From Acidobacteriota bacterium (lineage in GTDB: Bacteria; Acidobacteriota; UBA6911; RPQK01; JAJDTT01): 45,116 nt of DNA. Position 1 is the first letter of the stretch; every line of letters begins with the position of its first letter. Below, piece after piece: positions 3,158 to 24,339 of the stretch. Position numbers and translations under genes: made by a program. The notes below the pieces were generated by a model. The model was given only the letters and a program-made list of their open reading frames with translations, was not told the DNA's origin and searched no databases. The stretch lies in NCBI GenBank assembly GCA_028874215.1, contig JAPPLF010000068.1, forward strand, positions 1-45,116, written 5' to 3'.

Positions 3158-4204
3158 ATGACGGACATCATCAGGGTCGGCATCATCGGAGCGGGAAAGA
3201 TCGCCCAGGCCCGGCACATCCCTCTGCTGCTGAGGGTTCCCGGCGTCGAGATCACCCACGCCTGGTCCCGCCGGAAGGAAACGGCTCGAACGGCGGCCCG
3301 GAAGTTCAATATTCCCAACCTGGTCGAGCGCTGGGTGCAGATCATCGAAAACCGCGGCATCGACGCCGTGGTGATCGCCACCCCGCCTCACCTCCACCTG
3401 CCGGCCACCGTAGCCGCCCTGGATGCCGGCAAGCGCGTTCTCTGTCAGGCGAGGATGGCGCGTAACCTGCACGAGGCCCGGCAGATGCTGGAAGCCTCCC
3501 GGAAGACCGACCTGGTCACCTCCCTCTATGCGGCCGGTTTCGGCCTCAAGGGGGACCGGGTGATGCGCCGGCTGCTCAGTCAGGGCTACGTGGGAGACCT
3601 CCGGGAAGTGCGGGTCACGTCGCTGGTTCCGGCCCTTCCCGAGTCCGGCGCCTGGCTGGTGAACCCGGAGGTGGTGGGCGTCAACACCATGATGCTGGGG
3701 ATCCTGGCCGAGGTCGTCTACCGCTGGATCGACCCTCCCGTCTCCCTGATCGCCACTACCGGCGAAGACCTGTTGTCCGTGCCCCAGTCCCTGTCCATCG
3801 GGGCCGAGTTGCAGGGAGGAGCAACCGCCAGCTTTCACCTTTCGTTCCGGGTTCCCCGGGGTCCGGGCAGCTCGGTGGAGATCTACGGCACGCGGGGAGC
3901 GCTGGATTACAAGCTGCTGGTTGAAAAACCGGGAGGGCTGGTGGAAGACGAAGAACTGTTCGGCATGACCCGCGGGGATACCGGGATGCACCCCATCGAA
4001 ATGCCGCGGGAGGAACGGCGGGACCGAACCATGGACGCCGAGTTCATCGAGGCCATCCGGCGCGGCACGCCGGTGGCTCCCGATTTCGCAGAAGGGATCC
4101 GCTACATGGAGTTCTGCGAGGCGGTGGCCCAGTCGATCTACGAAGGCAGGAGGATCTCCATGCCGCCGGAGCCGAAGATGGACTCCTGGGGCCGTCCGCT
4201 CTAA
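3158..4204 (+). CDS. Gfo/Idh/MocA-family oxidoreductase
   Basis: This 348-residue protein starts with a Rossmann NAD(P) site (VGIIGAGKIAQARHIP). The strand VVIATPPHLHLP and the segment AALDAGKRVLCQARMARN follow, as in this family. Members usually oxidise or reduce sugars, inositols or related polyols. The usual E-K-P catalytic motif is replaced by C96-Q97-A98-R99, so the canonical Lys is missing. This points to a divergent subgroup or a changed chemistry. The C-terminal alpha/beta domain ends with a stretch containing DFAEGIRYMEFCEAV, typical of the family. An RBS-like GGGAGAAG precedes the ATG. It sits between the P-loop-like gene and a symporter, suggesting joint uptake and use of a sugar-like compound. 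Confidence 0.85.
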   Translation: MTDIIRVGIIGAGKIAQARHIPLLLRVPGVEITHAWSRRKETARTAARKFNIPNLVERWVQIIENRGIDAVVIATPPHLHLPATVAALDAGKRVLCQARMARNLHEARQMLEASRKTDLVTSLYAAGFGLKGDRVMRRLLSQGYVGDLREVRVTSLVPALPESGAWLVNPEVVGVNTMMLGILAEVVYRWIDPPVSLIATTGEDLLSVPQSLSIGAELQGGATASFHLSFRVPRGPGSSVEIYGTRGALDYKLLVEKPGGLVEDEELFGMTRGDTGMHPIEMPREERRDRTMDAEFIEAIRRGTPVAPDFAEGIRYMEFCEAVAQSIYEGRRISMPPEPKMDSWGRPL

Positions 4205-4250: not shown

Positions 4251-5747
4251 TTGGACCAAGCCAGCTTCGGCACCCTAAACGCCCTGGTTCTCGTAGCCTA
4301 CCTGCTGGGAGTCACCGTGCTGGCGCTGGCGCTGGCCGGACGCCAGCGGAACACCGAGTCCTATTTTCTGGCCGGACGCAGCATGCCCTGGCTGGCCGTC
4401 GCGTTGAGCACCGTCGCCAGCATGCTGAGCGGCCTCACCTACCTGGGAGCTCCGGCGGCGGCCTACAAGGACAACGCCTCCCTCATGCTGGCGGGCCCGG
4501 CGGCGCTGCTGGCCACGCCGCTGATGATCGCTCTCTATTTTCCCATCTACCGAAGGCTCAAGGTCACGACCATCTACGAATACGTCAACGCACGCTTTGG
4601 GAACCGTGCCCGCTACGCCGCCTCGGCTCTGGCCGTGCTTCAGATCCAGGGCTGGATGGGAATCGCCCTTTTCGCCCCCGCCCTGGCTCTTTCCACCGTC
4701 ACCGGGATCGATCTGACCCGCGCCATCCTGCTCATGGGTCTGGTGGCCACGGCGTACACCTGCACGGGAGGACTGGCGGCCGTCATCTGGACCGACGTGA
4801 TCCAGTTCGTGATCCTGACCACGGGCGCGGTGGTGGTCGCGTTCTCGCTGGTCGACCGGCTCCCGGGAGGCCTGGATCAATTCTTCGAGATCGTCCTGAC
4901 CGCGGACAAGTTGGGGGTGACCGATCTCCGGTTCGACCTGGCCGAGGCCACCGGACTGGCGGTCTTACTCTGTTACTTCATCAGCGGATTCGGATACGGG
5001 AACAACCAGGTGGTCATGCAGCGTCTGCTCGCGGCCAGGAGCCTCCGCGAAATGACGCGGGCGCTGTTGCTGGACCGGGTGCTGGAAATCCTGTTGGCCG
5101 CGCTGCTCTACATGATCGGACTCGGGATCTTCGCTTATTTCCTAGTATATCCCGAGCATCTGGCTCCGGGAGTCGCCGGCGACCGGATCCTGCCCTACTA
5201 CATCGTCCATGCCCTTCCGGCCGGCTTCTCGGGCCTGCTCATCGCCGCCGTCTTCGCCGCGGCCATGTCCACGGTGGATTCGGGGATCCACTCCTCAGCC
5301 ACCATGATCCAGGTCGATTTCGTGACCCCCCTCAGGAAGCGTGCCCTGACCCAGCGGCAGAGCCTGATGCTGGCCCGGGCCTTGACGGCGGGGCTGGGCC
5401 TGCTGGCCACCGCCGCCGCCCTGTTGGTATCGGAAGGCGCCGGCATTCTGGAAACCATGAGCAAGGTGGGCGGCCTCACGGCCGCGCCGGTCACGGGCCT
5501 CTTTCTGTTGGGAGTCCTGACCCGGAGGGGACATTTCCCGGCCTGGCTGGCCGCCACCGTGGGGATCTCGCTTCCGCTCAGCATCTACGTGCAGAACTTC
5601 GTCGAGATGCACTGGATCTTCTACACGCCCGTCGCGCTGTTGAGCTGCCTCTGCGGGTCCTGGCTCTTCAGCCTGCTGCCGAGATCACGGTCGAGCGAGG
5701 ATCGTGACCTCGAGGGATTGACGATCTGGGACCGGCGAAAAGGATAG
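4251..5747 (+). CDS. Sodium:solute symporter (SSS family)
   Basis: This is a 498-residue polytopic inner-membrane protein with about 13 hydrophobic segments. It carries SSS-family landmarks: AGRSMPWLAVALSTVASMLSGLTYLG near the N-terminus, the tyrosine-rich VTTIYEYVNARFG loop, ACTGGLAAVIWTDVIQF-like residues (TCTGGLAAVIWTDVIQ), and FAAAMSTVDSGIHSSATM late in the protein. The family imports sugars, amino acids or carboxylates with Na+. The start is a TTG at 4251, because no ATG or GTG lies between it and the preceding stop and the N-terminal helix begins directly after it; this start is not backed by a clear Shine-Dalgarno site. It is probably the last gene of the operon that begins at 2420, and is likely the uptake system for the oxidoreductase substrate. 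Confidence 0.9.
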   Translation: MDQASFGTLNALVLVAYLLGVTVLALALAGRQRNTESYFLAGRSMPWLAVALSTVASMLSGLTYLGAPAAAYKDNASLMLAGPAALLATPLMIALYFPIYRRLKVTTIYEYVNARFGNRARYAASALAVLQIQGWMGIALFAPALALSTVTGIDLTRAILLMGLVATAYTCTGGLAAVIWTDVIQFVILTTGAVVVAFSLVDRLPGGLDQFFEIVLTADKLGVTDLRFDLAEATGLAVLLCYFISGFGYGNNQVVMQRLLAARSLREMTRALLLDRVLEILLAALLYMIGLGIFAYFLVYPEHLAPGVAGDRILPYYIVHALPAGFSGLLIAAVFAAAMSTVDSGIHSSATMIQVDFVTPLRKRALTQRQSLMLARALTAGLGLLATAAALLVSEGAGILETMSKVGGLTAAPVTGLFLLGVLTRRGHFPAWLAATVGISLPLSIYVQNFVEMHWIFYTPVALLSCLCGSWLFSLLPRSRSSEDRDLEGLTIWDRRKG

Positions 5748-6182
5748 GAGCGGGAGTTGTTAACCCCCGATTCCGGATCGTACAGGCGAACCGGGACGTC
5801 CATATTCCAGCCATGCCGCGGCATCGGCGTTCGTGCTCCTGGGAACCCAATTAACGTCCTGGCCTGACTCCGTGCGCACCGGAGTCTCGTGGTTCCAGTC
5901 CCTCAGTCGTTGAGATAGACGAACCCTGGTCCTATGTCGCCAGCAAGGATCAGCGTGGGACATCGGCGGACCCGGAGACGGCCGGCACCCAGTGGATCTT
6001 CATCGCCATGGGCCGGGATAGCAAATGGAAGCCGGGCTGTCCGATTCGATCTGGCACATGGTCCATGCTCCCATGGTGGTACCATCCGTCGCTGCCATCG
6101 AGTCCTGTGTTAACTTTTCGGTAGCGAAGGTATAATTACGACTGGGACCTCGTTGAACCACAACTGAGAATCGGAGTCTCAA
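5748..6182. other. 435-bp intergenic stretch with decayed hairpin
   Basis: No convincing gene is visible. At 5751-5769 there is an imperfect hairpin (CGGGAGTT-GTT-AACCCCCG) at the same place relative to a stop codon as the other 20-nt hairpins, so it may be a decayed member. Short open frames on the minus strand (5621-6182) lack start signals and recognisable domains. The right end carries a promoter-like sequence for the next gene. Confidence 0.5.
6108..6136 (+). promoter_or_regulatory. Possible sigma70-type promoter
   Basis: A perfect TATAAT box is at 6131-6136 in otherwise GC-rich DNA, 46 bp upstream of the ATG at 6183. The matching -35 region at 17-bp spacing is weak (TGTTAA at 6108-6113). 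It would drive the accessory membrane-protein gene at 6183. Confidence 0.4.
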
Positions 6183-12652: not shown

Positions 12653-13910
12653 TGAGCCATCCACGCATGACCATGAATTCGAAGATGCCATCTTCCGTCT
12701 TACTCGTGAGATTGCTCATGATGTCGGGCTGATCGAACAACTCGACAGGGGGATCGAAGCGCTGGATTTGAGTTTCCCGGCCTACGCGGCGAACGTTGTA
12801 CAAAGCGATATCGCCATGTGGCCGCCCCCGGGCTTCTTTGAGCACGGCATCGCAAAATAGCGGCGAGTGGGTCGTCACGACGACTTGGCGTTCTTGCTCC
12901 ACAGCCATTGCCGTCAGCATTTTGGCAATCAGTTCTATCCGTCTCGGATGCACACCATTCTCGGGTTCCTCGAACGCAAGAAGCGAGCCACTCCACGGAT
13001 TCGCTGAGATTGCACAGAGCGCCAGCACTCGGAGTGTCCCCTCGGAAACGACGCGGGAAGAGTAGTTGGTGCCGTTCTGCTGAACGTTGATGTCAAGAAT
13101 GCCTCGACGCTCGTCCAGATCGATGTCGAATGCCTCGACGCTTGGAATTATCGATTGCACAGTTCGGACGACCGATTCAAAGTTCTTTCTGCGCTCTGCC
13201 TTGAGTTTGTAGAGGAAGGCTGCGATGTCCTCTCCGAACACACCTATATCAAACACATCCAGTGGTGGCGAAGCACGCCGCATCGCCAGCCGCGGATCCA
13301 GGTAGTAGGTTCTCCAGCCGAAGAGTTCTTCCCGAACCCGTTCGATGTACTTGTGTGCCGGGCTTCCTAACCGTGGGTCGGAGAGGATGGCGTAGTTCTG
13401 ATTGAGGTCCTCGAAACGAGGTCTCCCGCCCCCACTCTGGCGCCGGATCTTCAAACGCTGAGGCTCCGATTCCACTTCAATTGCCGGCACTCCTTTCTCA
13501 TTTCCGGTCGTTGACAGAGCCGACAGATACTCGTCACAGTTGGCCAGAGCACCCGACTTGGAGGCGATTTCCACCTCGATTCGATAACGGTAACGGTTCT
13601 TTCTGATTTTTCGCCCGTCAGGGATTGCCAAGTCTGCAGAAATCGAAAACCTGGCGGTAGATTTCGAGAGTAATTCCGGGATTCCACCGGCCGGCAGAGC
13701 AAATGCTTCGATCGGGTATCCCCGAATCATTTGTCCACCGAGGGCATCCATCAGCGTGCGCTCTGTACCGATCCTCGACAGAGCTTGGATCGCGTCGAGG
13801 AGGTTGCTCTTTCCCGCGGCATTAGGTCCGAAGAGAATCGTCAGCCGGGGAAATTCCATTGAAATGTTGGAGAGTGATTTGAAACTACGAACAGTCAGGT
13901 TCTGAATCAT
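12645..13910 (-). CDS. AAA/RecF-like ATPase (AAA_21), likely defence-associated
   Basis: This 421-residue protein is an SMC/RecF-type ATPase. The Walker A is GPNAAGKS (residues 28-35). An ABC-like signature, VSEGTLRVLAL, is near residue 287. The Walker B is LLAFEEPENGVHP (310-322) and the His switch is TTHSP (about 347-351). The middle section lacks a long coiled coil, as in OLD/AriA/RloA-like ATPases of phage-defence systems rather than RecF. GGAG just upstream supports the ATG at 13910. It is the first gene of a pair with the TOPRIM-like protein and overlaps it by 8 bp. ATP-dependent sensing with release or activation of the partner is the likely role, by analogy with PARIS, Gabija and OLD systems. 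Confidence 0.85.
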   Translation of the reverse strand: MIQNLTVRSFKSLSNISMEFPRLTILFGPNAAGKSNLLDAIQALSRIGTERTLMDALGGQMIRGYPIEAFALPAGGIPELLSKSTARFSISADLAIPDGRKIRKNRYRYRIEVEIASKSGALANCDEYLSALSTTGNEKGVPAIEVESEPQRLKIRRQSGGGRPRFEDLNQNYAILSDPRLGSPAHKYIERVREELFGWRTYYLDPRLAMRRASPPLDVFDIGVFGEDIAAFLYKLKAERRKNFESVVRTVQSIIPSVEAFDIDLDERRGILDINVQQNGTNYSSRVVSEGTLRVLALCAISANPWSGSLLAFEEPENGVHPRRIELIAKMLTAMAVEQERQVVVTTHSPLFCDAVLKEARGRPHGDIALYNVRRVGRETQIQRFDPPVELFDQPDIMSNLTSKTEDGIFEFMVMRGWLNE

Positions 13911-16964: not shown

Positions 16965-17353
16965 CCGCGGCCGAAAGCGGGCGCAAGATCTACTTCGGCA
17001 CGCTGACGGACCTAGTAATCTCTCTAGAAGAAGCCAGGGCCGTCGGCCGGCTCGACCGCCGCCTCAAGACCCTCACCCACCCGCCGCTTCTTGTCGTGGA
17101 CGAGATCGGCTACCTGCCGGTGACCCAGAGCGCCGAGGTCCTTTTCTTCCAAGTCATCAACGGGCGCTACGGGCGGGCCTCGAAAATCCTGACGTCCAAC
17201 AAGGGCTTCGAGGAGTGGGGCCGGATCCTCGGCGACGAGGTCATGGCCGCCGCGCTGCTCGACCGTCTACTCCACCGATGCCACATCGTGAATATCCGGG
17301 GCAACAGCTTCCGCATGCGCCGCCATGCCGAACTCTCCAAGGCGATCCATCCC
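16965..17353 (+). pseudogene. IS21-family IstB helper ATPase, C-terminal remnant
   Basis: About 129 codons of an IstB-like AAA protein are visible: KIYFGTLTDLVISLEEA, Walker B LLVVDEIGYLPV, SNKGFEEWGRILGDEVMAAA, then LLDRLLHRCHIVNIRGNSFR and the usual end ELSKAIHP. The N-terminal half with Walker A, and the IstA transposase, are missing. The left edge coincides with the stop of the DUF4328 gene. After SKAIHP the frame continues with unrelated residues. It is a dead remnant of an IS21 insertion. Confidence 0.85.
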
Positions 17354-17420
17354 CTTGGGAACCGAATGGGCGCCCAATCGCCCATGTCCAACTCGGCCTC
17401 GCTGGAAGCTTCGAATGCCA

Positions 17421-17700
17421 CAGTTCAGACAGCGGTAAGCGCGGCGGTCGCGGAGCCTCTCCGCCGCCTGCTTCCTGAGGGTCTCCAGCCGTTGCTCGTG
17501 GATGTCAGGGGCGCTCATGCATCCCATCTTGCACGTCACGGGTGTCTGTTCTTGTCCTTCCCGCCAGGGATATTTTGGACGGGAGCGACCCCCCAAGGCG
17601 ATGGCACGGAGAGTGCACATCAGCCGGGACCGCATTGCCGATCCGGGAGGCAAAAAGGGGGGGTCGCTCCCGTCCACTTCCGAACTCTCCGAGCGGCACG
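17421..17700 (-). repeat. Long structured repeat, copy A
   Basis: This ~280-bp segment is homologous to 19884-20175. On the minus strand it consists of an outer hairpin, a ~50-base leader and an open frame starting MSAPDIHEQRLETLRKQAAE and continuing RLRDRRAYRC. The hairpin arms (17577-17594 and 17658-17675) are perfect 18-bp complements (GGACGGGAGCGACCCCCC) with a 63-nt loop. Homology to copy B stops at the RRAYRC codons, so the recurring unit seems to be hairpin plus leader plus ~35 codons. It could be a mobile structured element, or the 5' part of a gene family whose 3' ends were lost. Confidence 0.7.
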
Positions 17701-17837
17701 GGCAAGCCGCGAGGCGATTCGTAACTCGCACGGGGACAGCAGTTTAGAGAAACACGTCCGTGCACATCGAAAGGCCTCATTGGTGCACATGGTTCCGGCT
17801 GTCCCATGTGCACTTCCCGAGCAACACGCAACGCCAC

Positions 17838-18019
17838 TTATTGGCTGATGGCGGCAATGGCGCGTTTCACCGTGGCCGGTTGCACCTGCTGCGTCCTCTT
17901 GGCGACGTAGCGTCTTCTCCCCCGGCGATCCTTCACCTTATAGATGCCCATGCATCTTCTCCTTTCTGGATCCGGGTTCTTCGCCGTGGAGCGAATCCTG
18001 CCACGGCTCCAAGGAATCG
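17838..18019 (-). pseudogene. Internally deleted tyrosine recombinase copy
   Basis: A 37-codon frame (start 17951, stop at 17838) reads MGIYKVKDRRGRRR, then YVAKRTQQVQPATVKRAIAA and ISQ. This joins residues 1-14 of the intact integrase (23224) directly to its residues 120-141. About 315 bp are missing in frame, and a stop follows. Homology also covers the ribosome-binding site and upstream leader (17952 to about 18019), including bases that lie in the repressor-integrase intergenic region of the intact locus. All catalytic residues are gone. Confidence 0.85.
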
Positions 18020-18125
18020 ACACTCCTCCCTTATCCAAATCGAATCACCACCATGGGAGCAGGACCAGTCTGGGCCCGAAGCATTGAGGCTGACCAGTGC
18101 ACCAACGCCACGAGGGAGAATGATG

Positions 18126-18911
18126 TCAGCGAAGAGGCTCCGTTGTAACGATCACGGAACTAAACCATTCCGTCTCCCGTGAGAACCAGAGAGCTCCCAC
18201 GGCAATGACAGTCTCCCCCTGGACGCGAACCACGCCACTGAATCTGATCGGTTCAGGACTGATAGTGTTTCGTGGTGGGTTTCCGCCCAAGGGGACCCAC
18301 TCCCGCAGGAAACGGCTCAGCTTGCTCTGGGCCTCGATCTCCCATGTCCTATTGCTCACCCTCCCTGACTCTGGCCCATGTTCGTAGAAGGTCACTGTGA
18401 CTGATTGCGCCGCGTCAGTTGGATTGGCAATCGCGATCCCCGTCTCTCCTTCCTCCGTCAACCGTGCGAACAGTCGGAATGCGTTGGCGGGTTCGACCAC
18501 TTGGGATTCGACGTACAGTCCCGGACGTGTCCGGTCCCACGTCGTGTTGACGGCATAGACGTCTGCGACATCGGGAACCGTAATCTTCGCCCAACCATTG
18601 TCAGTGAAGGGACCCGTCGAGGAATGGTGTGTGTTGTGGACCGATAACGCATCGCGGGCGATCAAGTGTGACTCTCTATACGACTCCCTCCCGTTTTCTC
18701 GGTACTCCTGGACGGTCACGCCAACGTACCGGCCCGACACTTCCGTAATGGACAGATAAGACGCCAGTGGGTCGGACTGAGTGAAGACTGGGGCGATAAG
18801 CTGCTTCCCTCCGGTGTCGTCATCGAGGGAGCGATCCGGGCGGTTCTGGCGCGCCTGACTGCCCGGCGCGAGGAGCAACAGGAGCCCAATTACAAATAGT
18901 TTGAATCGCAT
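18126..18911 (-). CDS. Secreted protein of unknown function
   Basis: This 261-residue protein has a clear signal peptide (MRFKLFVIGLLLLLAPGSQA). The start at 18911 is fixed by AAGGAG a few bases upstream. The mature part is beta-rich. One segment, GETGIAIANPTDAAQSVTVT followed by FYEHG, resembles the repeated NP-x-x-VTVTL modules in exported Acidobacteriota proteins. The C-terminus (VVRVQGETVIAVGALWFSRE) looks like a final sheet of the same type. There are no cysteines suggesting lipidation and no catalytic motif recognised. It is divergent from the outer-membrane protein gene at 19193. It is probably a cell-surface or periplasmic protein; its role is unknown. Confidence 0.7.
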   Translation of the reverse strand: MRFKLFVIGLLLLLAPGSQARQNRPDRSLDDDTGGKQLIAPVFTQSDPLASYLSITEVSGRYVGVTVQEYRENGRESYRESHLIARDALSVHNTHHSSTGPFTDNGWAKITVPDVADVYAVNTTWDRTRPGLYVESQVVEPANAFRLFARLTEEGETGIAIANPTDAAQSVTVTFYEHGPESGRVSNRTWEIEAQSKLSRFLREWVPLGGNPPRNTISPEPIRFSGVVRVQGETVIAVGALWFSRETEWFSSVIVTTEPLR

Positions 18912-19192
18912 AGGTTTCTCCTTCCTTCCGGATGGTCGACCTCGGGCAGACATCTCTTATCGGCTGGGTCCATTGTCGCGGTCCCTGCGGCGTTCCGATT
19001 CCCTGAGTCTCTCTCGCCTTCTCGCGGACGCTCTGCTCGAAGCGGGCACGCCGCTCAGTGCGGTCCTCTCTGATGGGTCGATCTCGTGGAGCTATCTGGA
19101 CTCAAGCCATCTGAACTCACTTGGTGAGCCGATTGTGGAGAAAAAATCGCATTTCCTGATGTCAGTCTGATTTCTAATGGGAGATGGGCACC
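18912..19192. promoter_or_regulatory. Divergent intergenic region
   Basis: This 281-bp gap separates the secreted-protein gene (minus) from the beta-barrel gene (plus). It must hold both promoters. I see no convincing -10/-35 pair or operator by eye. GGGAG at 19179-19183 is the ribosome-binding site of the plus gene. Confidence 0.4.
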
Positions 19193-19864
19193 ATGAGCAT
19201 CCTTACAAGCATACGCAACAGGCGGTTCCGGAAAACGGTCGGGTCCCAATATGTGGGACCTATCGCACCCATATTGAGTATTGTCTTTCGTCTTGCCATC
19301 ACTCTGGCACTGATTGTGCTGCCCACCGTCGGCACACTCTCCGCACAGCCCAAATCACCGGAAATATTCAGTACCATCGGCACTCTGCAGCTTGGAACCG
19401 ATGACGGCACACTCGGTCGCGCGGTCAGCTACGGCGGTGGTCTCACTGTACCCGTCACGGACCGCATGTATCTCGGATTCGACTTCGAGACTGCGCAGAT
19501 CCGCGAAATACATTCCAATGACAACTTCTACATCCGTCGAAGCACTCTCGTAATTCCCAACATATGCTTTCGGTGGGGCAATGAGAAAGCATACGGGTAT
19601 GTGGGCGCAGGGGTAGGCGGCGAATATGTGGAATCTCGTTCCAGGGGCGACCACTTCGAGCCTGGAGAGTCACTGCCAGAATGGCGTGAAATCAGGCCAG
19701 GCGTGTTGGAGTTTGGCTTTAAGGAGTGGCGCAGAATACTGTTCGCGCCCAAGGTCGGGTTTGTTGCGTTTCCGGTTGACCGGATTGGAGTAAAGGTAGA
19801 TTTCGGGTTCGCTAATTGGCACATGGGCCTTAGAGTGGGCGCGGTCTACAGGATTGGAAGTTGA
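19193..19864 (+). CDS. Putative outer-membrane beta-barrel protein
   Basis: This 223-residue protein has a long basic N-terminus followed by a signal-like helix (ILSIVFRLAITLALIVLPTV, ending before LSAQP). The rest shows alternating-residue strands typical of small barrels: YGGGLTVPVTDRMYLGFDFE, AYGYVGAGVGGEYV, FAPKVGFVAFPVDRIGVKVD and LRVGAVYRIGS. It was probably exported to the outer membrane. The ATG at 19193 matches GGGAG at good spacing; an ATG at 19184 is also in frame. It has no close partner; the gene ends 20 bp before repeat copy B. Confidence 0.65.
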   Translation: MSILTSIRNRRFRKTVGSQYVGPIAPILSIVFRLAITLALIVLPTVGTLSAQPKSPEIFSTIGTLQLGTDDGTLGRAVSYGGGLTVPVTDRMYLGFDFETAQIREIHSNDNFYIRRSTLVIPNICFRWGNEKAYGYVGAGVGGEYVESRSRGDHFEPGESLPEWREIRPGVLEFGFKEWRRILFAPKVGFVAFPVDRIGVKVDFGFANWHMGLRVGAVYRIGS

Positions 19865-19883
19865 AGAGGATACGATAGGAAAC

Positions 19884-20175
19884 CAGTCCGGACAGCGGTA
19901 AGCGCGGCGGACACGCAGCCTCTCCACCGCCTGCTTCCTGAGGGCCTCCAGCCGTTGCTCGGGGATGCCGGGGACGCTCATGCGTTCCATCGTGCCCGTC
20001 ACTGGTGTCTTCTATTGGCCTTCCCGCAAGGGATAATTTGGAAGGGAGCGACCCCCCACAGGGGGTGTTGCGCAGATGTAAACTGCGCCACACCCCCGCG
20101 CCCGCACCGGGCAGGAAAAAGGGGGGGGTCGCTCCCGTCCACCTCCGCTTTCCCCGTGCGGGCACCGCGAAGCCG
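19884..20175 (-). repeat. Long structured repeat, copy B
   Basis: This is homologous to 17421-17700. On the minus strand the frame starts MSVPGIPEQRLEALRKQAVE and continues RLRVRRAYRC, then diverges. Outer arms at 20040-20057 and 20123-20140 pair over 18 bp with one mismatch. Inside the loop there is a second hairpin absent from copy A: 20061-20075 against 20083-20097, 15 bp with one mismatch and a 7-nt loop ATGTAAA. The outer stem is nearly constant between copies while the inner part differs, which suggests that the outer stem is what matters or that it marks element ends. Confidence 0.7.
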
Positions 20176-20600
20176 GGAATGTGGCCGCAACTGCATGAGC
20201 GACAAAGAGATCGGGGAAATCGGAGGTGTAAGTCAAAAGGCCTCCGGGATGTAACTTGAGTCCTTTGTCTCCCTTACACTCCCCGATCGGCACCGAACCC
20301 CACTTTTCGGCGGTCAGAATCGACCTCCCGGAAGCCGGCTCGAACGCCAGCTCCCGAAGCCTGCCGGGAGGACCACCACGGCGGATCAACGGTGCCGGAC
20401 GGACGCCTGAGGCCGGCTCTCGCCAGCCAGATAGCTCGCCCAGTTCTCCGCGAGCACGCGCCGCCGCTCGAACAGGTCAGTGGACTCTATGGACGAGTTT
20501 CGAGCTTCAACTCCAAACCACGCCGCCCAGCCGGGAGGTCTGGGAATTGCCCACGCAGTCCACCGGAATCGGTGTGGAAAGGTTCCGGGCTCAATTCTTA
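20176..20600. other. 425-bp stretch without a supported gene
   Basis: Open frames on both strands are short, Pro/Arg/Ser-rich and without domains. A minus-strand segment (about 20264-20370) reads GRLRELAFEPASGRSILTAE, which looks like protein debris, but no start or end can be set. The right edge is the left inverted repeat of the IS5-type element. Confidence 0.4.
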
Positions 20601-21794
20601 GGGAAGGTCTGAGTAAGTCCTCATACGGGGCGAAACAGACCTTAGTATCTCTGCCTTTTTCGGATCCAGGCGTTGTAACGTGGGATTTGCAACCCTGAAT
20701 TGGTCTTGACCAAGCGATTGCGAGACGGTTTCCCCAGCCTCAAACACAGCCGTGCCGCATTCCGATCAGGCGGTCACACCGGAGCGCTCGGCGATCATCA
20801 GATTGGCGAATCCCACCAGCAGATAGATCCGTTGGGTGTTTTTCGCCAGCCCGCGGTAGCGCACCTTGGCGTAGCCGAAATGCCGTTTCAGGTACCCGAA
20901 CACATGTTCGGCCTTCGCCCGAACCGATGCCTTGCGCCGCTCGGCCAACGCCGCCTCACTCTCCGGCGACAGCTGCCAACGCTTCCCGGGCTTCATCATC
21001 ACCTGCCAATCCATCGGCCGATCTCGATTCTCCGACCGCTTCTGCACTCCCTGGTATCCGGAATCCCCCCAAACTTGCGACTCCGAGCCGTGCAGCAATT
21101 CGGAGGCCCGCGTCACGTCATGCTCGTTGGCCGGAGCCGTCACCACCGTGTGCGCCACCCCCGTCTGGGCGTCCACCCCCAGGTGGGCCTTCATTCCGAA
21201 ATACCACTGTTTTCCCTTCTTCGTCTGATGCATCTCCGGGTCCCGCGCCCCCTCCCTGTTCTTGGTCGAGGAAGGCGCCGCCAGGATACTCGCGTCCACG
21301 ATCGTCCCCCGGCTCAGCCGCAGGCCTTGCCGCTGCAGGTGAGAACCGATCTCCTCGAACAGCGCCTCCCCCAGACCATGCTCCTCCAGCCGATGACGGA
21401 ACTTCAGAATCGTCGTCTCGTCCGGCAGCGGCCCCGTGAGCTTCAGGCCCACGAACCGCCGCACCGACTCCACCTCATAGAGCAGATCCTCCATCCCCGG
21501 ATCGCTCAGGTTGTAAAACAGCTGCACGCAGTGAACCCGCAGCATCGTCGAGAGCGGGTAGGGACGCCGGCCCCGTCCCGCTTTCGGGTAAAACGGCTCA
21601 ATCCGGGCTTCCAAGTGCTCCCACGGAATCAACCCGTCCATGCGGGCCAGAAACTTCTCTCGACGGGTCACCCGCTTCTTGGTGTCGTATTCCAGATCTG
21701 CGAACGTCCGTTGCGACATCGTCTTTCCCCCCAACGCAGTGATGATGAAAGAATTATCGTGCAGAACGCTGACTCGACTTAATCAGACCTTCCC
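20601..21794. mobile_element. IS5-type insertion sequence, complete
   Basis: Terminal inverted repeats GGGAAGGTCTGAGTAAGTC (20601-20619) and its counterpart at 21776-21794 (read inward GGGAAGGTCTGATTAAGTC) match at 18 of 19 bases. They enclose one transposase gene. The total is about 1.19 kb, a normal size for the family. No target-site duplication is obvious in the flanks (left ...TTCTTA, right TGATAA...), so the flanks may have been rearranged after insertion. The element looks intact and possibly active. Confidence 0.85.
20766..21719 (-). CDS. IS5-family DDE transposase
   Basis: This 317-residue protein has the IS5 layout. An N-terminal DUF772-like region comes first (RRPYPLSTMLRVHCVQLFYN, LSDPGMEDLLYE, LPDETTILKFRH). 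The DDE core follows, with Asp in GTIVDASILAAPSSTKN, Asp in VWGDSGYQGVQKR and Glu in VRAKAEHVFGYLKRHFGY. The conserved YFGMKAHLGVDAQTGV segment is present. The ATG at 21719 follows GGGGGAAAG; a TTG at 21734 is also in frame. The length is normal and no frameshift is needed. It lies within inverted repeats at 20601 and 21794. Confidence 0.92.
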   Translation of the reverse strand: MSQRTFADLEYDTKKRVTRREKFLARMDGLIPWEHLEARIEPFYPKAGRGRRPYPLSTMLRVHCVQLFYNLSDPGMEDLLYEVESVRRFVGLKLTGPLPDETTILKFRHRLEEHGLGEALFEEIGSHLQRQGLRLSRGTIVDASILAAPSSTKNREGARDPEMHQTKKGKQWYFGMKAHLGVDAQTGVAHTVVTAPANEHDVTRASELLHGSESQVWGDSGYQGVQKRSENRDRPMDWQVMMKPGKRWQLSPESEAALAERRKASVRAKAEHVFGYLKRHFGYAKVRYRGLAKNTQRIYLLVGFANLMIAERSGVTA

Positions 21795-21836
21795 TGATAA
21801 ACTGCAACCAATCGATTGTACTGAGGGTAGTTGATA

Positions 21837-23150: not shown

Positions 23151-23223
23151 ACGCCGATTCTCTGGAGCCGTGGTACGATTCGCTTCATGGCGAAGAACCC
23201 GGATCCGGAAAGGAGGAGATGCT

Positions 23224-24339
23224 ATGGGCATCTACAAGGTGAAGGATCGCCGGGGGAGACGACGTTTCGTCGTCAGCAAGTACTGGCCGCATGGATCCGG
23301 TCGGCTCCGAATGTACGCCCCCAACTACCGGAGCGCACAGGCGCTTCAAACACGAATCGAGTCCAGCATCCTGGACGGCACCTGGAAGCACCTCAAGGAG
23401 GAGCTCGCCGGTGGGAAACGCACCATCTGGACGGTGCACAGCTTCTACGAGCGTTTTCTCGAGGAGTACTGCAAACCTCGCATGCGTTCCTGGCGGAGCT
23501 ATGAGGGTTCGTTCAAGAGCCTCAATGCCATGCTGGGGAACATTCCCCTGAAGGAGTTCCAACGCAAGGACCTGCACCGCTACGTCGCCCAGAGGAAGGA
23601 ACAAGTCAAACCGGCCACGGTGAACCGCGCCATCGCCGCCATCAGCAAGCTATTTTCCTACGCGCTGGAGTGCGGGGAAGTGGACACGCACCCGCTGATT
23701 CGGTTCCCCAAACTCAAGGAGCCGAAGAAGGTCTTCCGGCCTTTGACGGTCCGACAGTTCCGCGACCTGGTCGAGGCGGTGGACAATCCCTACCTGCAAG
23801 CCATGATCGCGGTGATCGGCGAGACGGGAATTCGAAAGGGAGAAGCATTGTCGCTCACCTGGAAGCGGGTGGACCTGGACCGAGGATTGCTCTGGGTGGA
23901 ACTCACCAAGAACGACAGGACGAGGGAGATCCCACTGTCGCAGTATGCCACCGGATATCTGACAGGGCTCCCACGGTACCTGAACACCTCATACGTCTTT
24001 GTCAACAGCCGGACGGAGACGAGATGGGTGAATCCCGACCAGCCTCTGCGTTGCGCTGCCGAGAGAGTTGGGTTGAAGGTCGGATTTCACGATCTGAGGC
24101 GATTCCGGTGCAGCCACTGGCTGATGCAGGGTGTGGACGTGAGGACGGTGCAGAAGCTGATGGGCCACTCGGCCATCAGCACGACCATGCGGTATGCGGG
24201 GTACGTCAGTTCGCATGCGCTTGCCAGCATTCGGGAGGCACAGGCTACCGAAGACTCCCAAACGCAACCGGCAACAAACAGGCAACGGGTAAGAACCAAG
24301 AGGGAACATTTAGAGGGGAGAATTGAGATAAACTATTGA
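23224..24339 (+). CDS. Tyrosine recombinase / phage-type integrase, intact
   Basis: This 371-residue protein has three parts. There is an N-terminal short basic segment (MGIYKVKDRRGRRR). A SAM-like core-binding domain follows (about residues 65-145, TVHSFYERFLEEYC ... KPATVNRAIAAISKLFSYAL). The catalytic domain has Arg204 (ETGIRKGE), Lys229, His289-Leu-Arg-Arg292 (FHDLRRFR), His315 (LMGHSAIST) and Tyr324 (TMRYAGY). All residues needed for DNA cleavage are present. AGGAGG precedes the ATG strongly. It is the parent type of the two broken copies at 16143 and 17838. It is probably the integrase of a small genomic island with the decayed S24 repressor divergent to it. No tRNA-based attachment site was found nearby. 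Confidence 0.92.
   Translation: MGIYKVKDRRGRRRFVVSKYWPHGSGRLRMYAPNYRSAQALQTRIESSILDGTWKHLKEELAGGKRTIWTVHSFYERFLEEYCKPRMRSWRSYEGSFKSLNAMLGNIPLKEFQRKDLHRYVAQRKEQVKPATVNRAIAAISKLFSYALECGEVDTHPLIRFPKLKEPKKVFRPLTVRQFRDLVEAVDNPYLQAMIAVIGETGIRKGEALSLTWKRVDLDRGLLWVELTKNDRTREIPLSQYATGYLTGLPRYLNTSYVFVNSRTETRWVNPDQPLRCAAERVGLKVGFHDLRRFRCSHWLMQGVDVRTVQKLMGHSAISTTMRYAGYVSSHALASIREAQATEDSQTQPATNRQRVRTKREHLEGRIEINY

Follow-up and report, generated by a model that had tools for sequence, protein, structure and literature searches.

Hairpin-bearing repeats behind P4-like tyrosine integrases are probable attachment modules of small integrative elements in an Acidobacteriota genome

The 45,116-nt stretch of DNA analysed here (hereafter the window: contig JAPPLF010000068.1 of assembly GCA_028874215.1, Acidobacteriota bacterium) originates from a host that, on the basis of bin names and general knowledge, is probably a sponge symbiont, and it carries two copies (A and B) of a structured repeat. 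We consider it likely, judging from sequence comparisons, that this repeat is the attachment (att) module (i.e. arm-type sites plus a crossover core) of a P4-like integrase, belonging to small integrative elements that would build up in tandem arrays. The observed support for this reading comprises the copy number of the repeat, its linkage to the integrase, motifs that change in concert, an invariant stem and core, a fixed spacing between stem and core, and varied right-hand joins. Copies A and B are themselves best read as decayed right ends of such elements, and no intact integrase of the P4-like family lies beside either of them.

The two copies appear in the window as direct repeats of 175 nt (17421-17595 and 19884-20058, 87% identity), accompanied by a further matching pair of 52 nt (17645-17696 and 20110-20161, 83% identity), and all of their features read on the minus strand. 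The arms of the outer stem are complementary at 19/19 positions in copy A (17576-17594 with 17658-17676) and at 18/19, with one mismatch, in copy B (20039-20057 with 20123-20141), and both copies fold, on either strand, at -73 to -82 kcal/mol (z -4.5 to -6.4; 0/200 dinucleotide shuffles as good), which bears out the two hairpins with common arms that had been recognised in the original prediction from the sequence alone. The same prediction had both copies running into unrelated DNA beyond the repeat limits; the unit turned out to be longer, its homology reaching ~17839 in copy A and ~20482 (at an integrase 3' remnant) in copy B. The inner hairpin that it held to be absent from copy A is present there with bulges (GGCGATGgCAC..GTGcACATC) but weak (interior type z -0.65 versus shuffles).

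With copy A as query, the host genome yielded 36 matches (some full-length, many consisting of the hairpin half alone), so that the count of two given in the original prediction, which had also been its own case for abandoning the idea, was far too low. Three genomes of the same genus contain 16, 5 and 7 module copies, and none were found in 27 other genomes of the same order or class at the sensitivity of the copy-number search. Across 297 genomes of the phylum, an exact (perfect-stem) pattern matched 22 times in the host genome and occurred besides in two genomes of its genus and in two distant ones (0 for a reversed-pattern control). In a metagenome-assembled genome (MAG) of the Gammaproteobacteria (locus L145; C labels denote host-genome loci, L and G labels further loci or genomes compared), a 93%-identical integrase is accompanied by the same module and the same core, most of the stem interior being deleted and the stem retained. 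Diverged modules occur also in Gemmatimonadota and distant Acidobacteriota, and in G216, a genome of a distant acidobacterial family, the same stem (core TTCCCTGGCGGGAAGGCC) is preceded, at ~250 nt, by a C-terminal integrase remnant. Searches of plasmids, phages and IMG/VR with the module or the stem pattern gave no match, and literature searches yielded nothing relevant, either on the stem sequence or on elements of this kind from sponge symbionts.

Alignment of 28, and then of 46, copies revealed one order of parts: four short motifs, a stem (GGGAGCGACCCC/GGGGTCGCTCCC), 8-11 nt, and a palindromic core (TCCCTGGCGGGAAGG, also given as TCCCTnGCGGGAAGG), which keeps this distance past the stem across phyla. 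One motif is inverted, two are direct and one lies within the stem. They come as TTACA (type 1), GTGCAC (type 2) or TTCACA (type 3), while diverged modules repeat new versions within one copy (GCGCAC at sites 1-3 in L217a, ATTCACAC in L348). For all six site pairs, the motifs agree within a copy at a mean of 5.3-5.7 of 6 bases, as compared to 4.5-4.8 between copies (0/500 permutations). Sites 1 and 3 could pair with each other, whereas sites 2 and 4 vary in concert without such pairing; concerted, iteron-like motifs that include non-pairing sites argue for a DNA-binding protein that reads sequence, and they point to the arm domain of the integrase as a suitable candidate reader. Of the 17 consensus pairs of the outer stem, four show double changes, C-G having become A-U in six copies; the check for compensatory changes proposed in the original prediction returned few, since the stem hardly varies. 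The stem interior falls into 10 classes, most of which fold better than shuffles (weakly so in the class of copy A and in G216), and the picture drawn in the original prediction, of a mobile element whose outer stem stays constant while its interior is exchanged, is borne out by a stem that is near-invariant across phyla around 10 distinct interiors.

In the reading direction of the module, the homology upstream of the hairpin continues into the 3'-terminal part of the gene for a tyrosine integrase with the domains Arm-DNA-bind_3, Phage_int_M and Phage_integrase (above curated cut-offs for two divergent copies). The host genome contains ~13 long copies of this integrase together with about a dozen C-terminal fragments; wherever both survive, the integrase 3' end is separated from the hairpin unit by 174-196 nt on the same strand, and the module is present behind 9 of the 12 integrase 3' ends that have at least 400 nt of following sequence. 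The companion parts that had been reported as missing from the neighbourhood therefore do include one, a tyrosine integrase normally ~190 nt upstream, although in copy B it is reduced to a 3' remnant of 31 codons (20386-20481, minus strand, identified by homology; TDLFERRRVLAENWASYLAGESRPQASVRHR stop). A related palindromic core (CCTTCCCGCnnGGAATCC) is present at the left end of the integrase elements, in L145, L146 and L147 too, and relatives with 70-93% identity come from MAGs labelled Gammaproteobacteria, Acidobacteria, BD2-11, Gemmatimonadetes and others. As separate observations on this gene, the integrase fragments L083 6-332 and L081 3676-3783 resume at identical codons (KVEAAYRRTDLF) past a deletion or fusion, which hints at a second breakpoint, and the related integrases L149 and L151 (~5400-6000) are inserted at FWQQAY in a gene that by eye resembles a VirD4/TraG-like coupling-protein gene.

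Different right-hand sequences are joined at the palindromic core, and flanks were sorted against module types by eye from the module alignments. The flank bearing a zinc-ribbon-like open reading frame (ORF) follows modules of type 1 (C24a, C48a, window B, G002a, G001c), type 2 (C24d, C11b, C59, window A, G003d) and type 3 (C24c, C48b, C11a, C93, C38); flank iii is joined to types 1, 2 and 3, and flank iv (CGGACTGTTTC...) to types 1 and 3. Flank iv exists also without a module; there it abuts two halves of an abundant palindromic repeat, the junction falling exactly at CGG, and these halves are found ahead of the integrases at C74 and C80 as well. Site-specific joining at the palindromic core predicts both these combinations of flank and module and the related core at the integrase left end. 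No tRNA gene was seen at the joins, which coincide with palindromic repeats and with the ends of modules. The abundant palindromic repeat, whose ends read AACAGYCCGTGGTRAAAGTC (L103 ~5870-6030, L336 ~3230-3340, L339 ~13846-13904), has integrases and flank iv joined to it in mid-repeat.

Modules form same-orientation runs at C24 (four), C48 (three), C70 and in the window, and the genes lying between modules (a SacI-like restriction enzyme accompanied by a cytosine methylase, as well as HU-family genes at C24, C40 and C48) suggest cargo borne by the elements. An extra, truncated bamD was also noted between two modules (L079 13240-13791, 79% to the ordinary copy at C61), and an HU-family gene recurs beside zinc-ribbon-like ORFs (L079 14896-15162, L080 7398-7664, L081 10234-10500). 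HU-type proteins assist lambda-type integrases and, by analogy, the HU-family genes near these ORFs may be functionally relevant to the integrase.

On the assumption that the repeat is an att module, an intact element would consist of a left end, the integrase gene (~1.2 kb), ~190 nt, four arm-type motifs around an inverted repeat, the hairpin (an invariant stem of 12-18 bp), 8-11 nt and the core. The N-terminal arm-binding domain of the integrase would bind the four concerted motifs, and its catalytic domain would cleave at the core and, by strand exchange, connect it with a second core. As each module ends in a core of its own, elements would pile up in tandem, leaving behind modules and 3' stubs of integrase genes. 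The hairpin would most likely fix the helical distance between the arm region and the core, or stop transcription coming from the integrase gene; a role as a folded site is also conceivable.

Several observations weigh against this reading. A long hairpin is an unusual part of a phage-type attachment site (attP). Common descent contributes to the agreement of motifs within copies, as permutation does not remove shared ancestry. Some integrases have no module (C80, the C21 fragment, C107), and relatives with 77-78% identity in Gemmatimonadetes (L150, L151) lack it as well, being followed by an AlpA gene instead. Homologous recombination within the conserved stem, of which C80a and C24b are mosaic products, could explain part of the flank shuffling, although it leaves unexplained the occurrence of flank iv on unrelated left sequences. 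Moreover, no clean filled/empty site and no pair of attL and attR sites was recovered from the orthologous flanks searched (bamD, HU, katG and the window flanks), since contigs break in these repeats, and the nearest candidate for an empty site (L137) can also be read as a deletion.

The module comes immediately after the integrase gene and on its strand, which raises the alternative that the integrase mRNA has a structured 3' untranslated region, i.e. a retroregulator or terminator that lowers integrase levels, with the integrase-less copies as its dead remnants. In lambda, the integrase 3' end adjoins the arm sites and core of attP, and a hairpin (sib) lies in the 3' untranslated region; the present arrangement places comparable, putative parts side by side. 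Strong folding on both strands, the preservation of hairpin formation by several different interiors and a short T run 3' of the left arm are in keeping with such an RNA. We nevertheless regard it as an unlikely explanation, as motifs 1-4 co-vary even though two of them are not pairing partners (for which RNA folding alone is insufficient), the switch of right-hand sequence at the core is left unaccounted for by RNA regulation, the outer stem shows few compensatory changes, and an Rfam 15 scan of the window returned no family above its gathering score. Unlike in lambda attP, all four recognised motifs are on one side of the core and the stem sequence is invariant across phyla. A role in RNA regulation could exist alongside that of an att module.

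The same-orientation arrays (four modules at C24, three at C48), the varied genes between modules (restriction enzyme and methylase, truncated second bamD, HU-family genes) and the free combination of junctions at the core recall integrons, in which many structured sites (attC) stand in arrays of one orientation with different genes between them. Here, the hairpin would be a folded single-stranded recombination site, and the genes between modules would be cassettes moved by the integrase. This we judge improbable: the integrase, P4-like and equipped with an arm domain, is not IntI (the module-linked integrases gave no integron-integrase match), arm-type repeats are present, and the junction core lies outside the large stem, at 8-11 nt, where in attC a stem carries the crossover boxes. 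Furthermore, no complete module-to-module unit (a cassette with both ends) was found intact at two places in the arrays examined, and the HU copies share ~490 bp and not whole units. In part, the integron-like reading could hold alongside that of an att module. We place little credence in its farther-reaching form, in which P4-like integrases would use a hairpin-bearing att site with arm motifs in the role of attC, capturing and reordering genes across the phyla of sponge symbionts.

The least probable of the alternatives weighed is a non-autonomous repeat of ~300 bp, of miniature inverted-repeat transposable element (MITE) or repetitive extragenic palindrome (REP) type, moved by a transposase and located beside integrases by accident. 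It draws on the many module-only copies that begin near one point (~290-330 bp from the core) and on a genome full of other palindromic repeats; the left homology edges, however, are not sharp and spread over several positions, the distance to the integrase 3' end stays constant in many copies, those of other taxa included, and neither terminal inverted repeats nor a target duplication were recognised around the module (no empty site being available for comparison). Readings as a retron, a diversity-generating retroelement (DGR) or an Rfam RNA, the first two of which had been floated in the original prediction, were rejected for lack of the required parts, no reverse transcriptase having turned up among the proteins checked near the copies (a subset of the ORFs) and the window matching no Rfam family.

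Among described systems, the behaviour nearest to that of the att module is, by analogy, shown by PAISt of Streptomyces turgidiscabies (PMC4057263), which has a tyrosine integrase, a palindromic core, modular excision and modules bounded by att copies that lie beside C-terminal integrase remnants. The elements described here share with it the integrase type, the palindromic core and repeated, here putative, att sites adjoining C-terminal integrase remnants; PAISt, in contrast, has three att copies, very large modules and a plain 8-bp palindrome (PMC4057263), where the present elements have dozens of copies, a conserved hairpin and arm motifs. Integrases of the P4/CP4-57 type, which act with attP and AlpA in genomic islands, have the same domain order (Arm-DNA-bind_3, Phage_int_M, Phage_integrase), and the likeness extends to the above-mentioned 77-78% relatives from Gemmatimonadetes that precede AlpA. 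They differ in that here the integrase has behind it a module of ~300 nt, marked by its invariant hairpin and its set of four concerted motifs, more than 30 module copies occur in one genome, and the joins are at palindromic repeats or module ends with no tRNA gene seen. In the ORF lists, of which a part was scanned, no AlpA gene was noticed beside module-bearing integrases.

Taken together, these comparisons tie an anonymous, abundant repeat of apparent sponge symbionts to an enzyme and to a testable mechanism. The four-fold concerted motif variants offer a natural data set on the evolution of arm-binding specificity in integrases, and the invariant hairpin beside the core raises the question of whether a folded site is used by an arm-type integrase. 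With the module present not only in Acidobacteriota but also in Gemmatimonadota and in a MAG of the Gammaproteobacteria, the elements are a candidate vehicle of gene flow in sponge microbiomes.

The common frame start recognised in the original prediction stood up: translation places the N-terminal part of a zinc-ribbon-like ORF just outside the core of both copies, at 17393-17518 in copy A (minus strand, starting at 17518 with MSAPDIHEQRLETLRKQAAERLRDRRAYRC) and at 19883-19981 in copy B (minus strand, starting at 19981 with MSVPGIPEQRLEALRKQAVERLRVRRAYRC). Better copies of this small ORF have two CPxCG-type knuckles (MSAPDIHEQRLEALRKQAVERLRARRAYRCPDCGYRSFQRDCPRCGETCETA), and Pfam gave weak zinc-ribbon matches. 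Synonymous changes make up 45% of single-change codons in its frame versus 21-23% in the other two frames, and this roughly twofold excess indicates that the ORF was probably once a real gene, now often broken. As its start lies ~40 nt past the core, beyond the junction, and the ORF sometimes adjoins the left end of an integrase and no module (C21, L146), we consider it a neighbour or target and not the reason for the hairpin. The regulatory RNA leader entertained in the original prediction is a less likely reading, given that the concerted motifs point to a DNA-binding protein and that the ORF lies past the recombination junction and is no fixed partner of the module.

In the window, the att module of copy A (type 2, GTGCAC arm motifs; minus strand, as are all parts below) was delimited by alignment to 17556-17839, from the crossover core to the left homology limit. 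It comprises the core ATCCCTGGCGGGAAGG (17556-17571, the putative crossover site), the right arm of the outer stem (17576-17594, GGGGGGTCGCTCCCGTCCA on the minus strand), the imperfect inner hairpin (17597-17622), which holds arm-like site 4 (GATGTGCACTC, 17611-17621), the left arm (17658-17676, TGGACGGGAGCGACCCCCC on the minus strand), and arm-like sites 3 (GATGTGCACGG, 17758-17768), 2 (CATGTGCACC, 17782-17791) and, inverted, 1 (GTGCACATGG, 17804-17813). The module of copy B (type 1, TTACA arm motifs) spans 20019-20312, its left edge being approximate, and has the core ATCCCTTGCGGGAAGG (20019-20034), the right and left arms of the outer stem (20039-20057 and 20123-20141) and, between them, an inner hairpin GGGGGTGTGGCGCAG..CTGCGCAACACCCCC (20061-20097) with site 4 in its loop (CAGTTTACATC, 20075-20085). 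A second outer inverted repeat (CCTCCGATTTCCCC/GGGGAAAGCGGAGG) occupies 20142-20226, and arm-like sites 3 (20225-20234), 2 (20247-20256) and, inverted, 1 (20271-20279) follow within 20225-20279.

Upstream of module A lies the N-terminal remnant (MGIYKVKDRRGRRR...; 17838-17951, minus strand) of a second family of tyrosine recombinases, of which the window holds a long copy of 372 aa at 23221-24336; the genome has six long copies of this family, three of them with an in-frame stop. Other mobile elements border both repeats: the C-terminal half of an IstB-type helper ATPase of the IS21 family (16976-17395) ends where the zinc-ribbon-like ORF of copy A starts, and an insertion sequence with 25-bp inverted ends (20595-21800; DDE transposase at 20769-21734) is located directly beside the integrase remnant of copy B.

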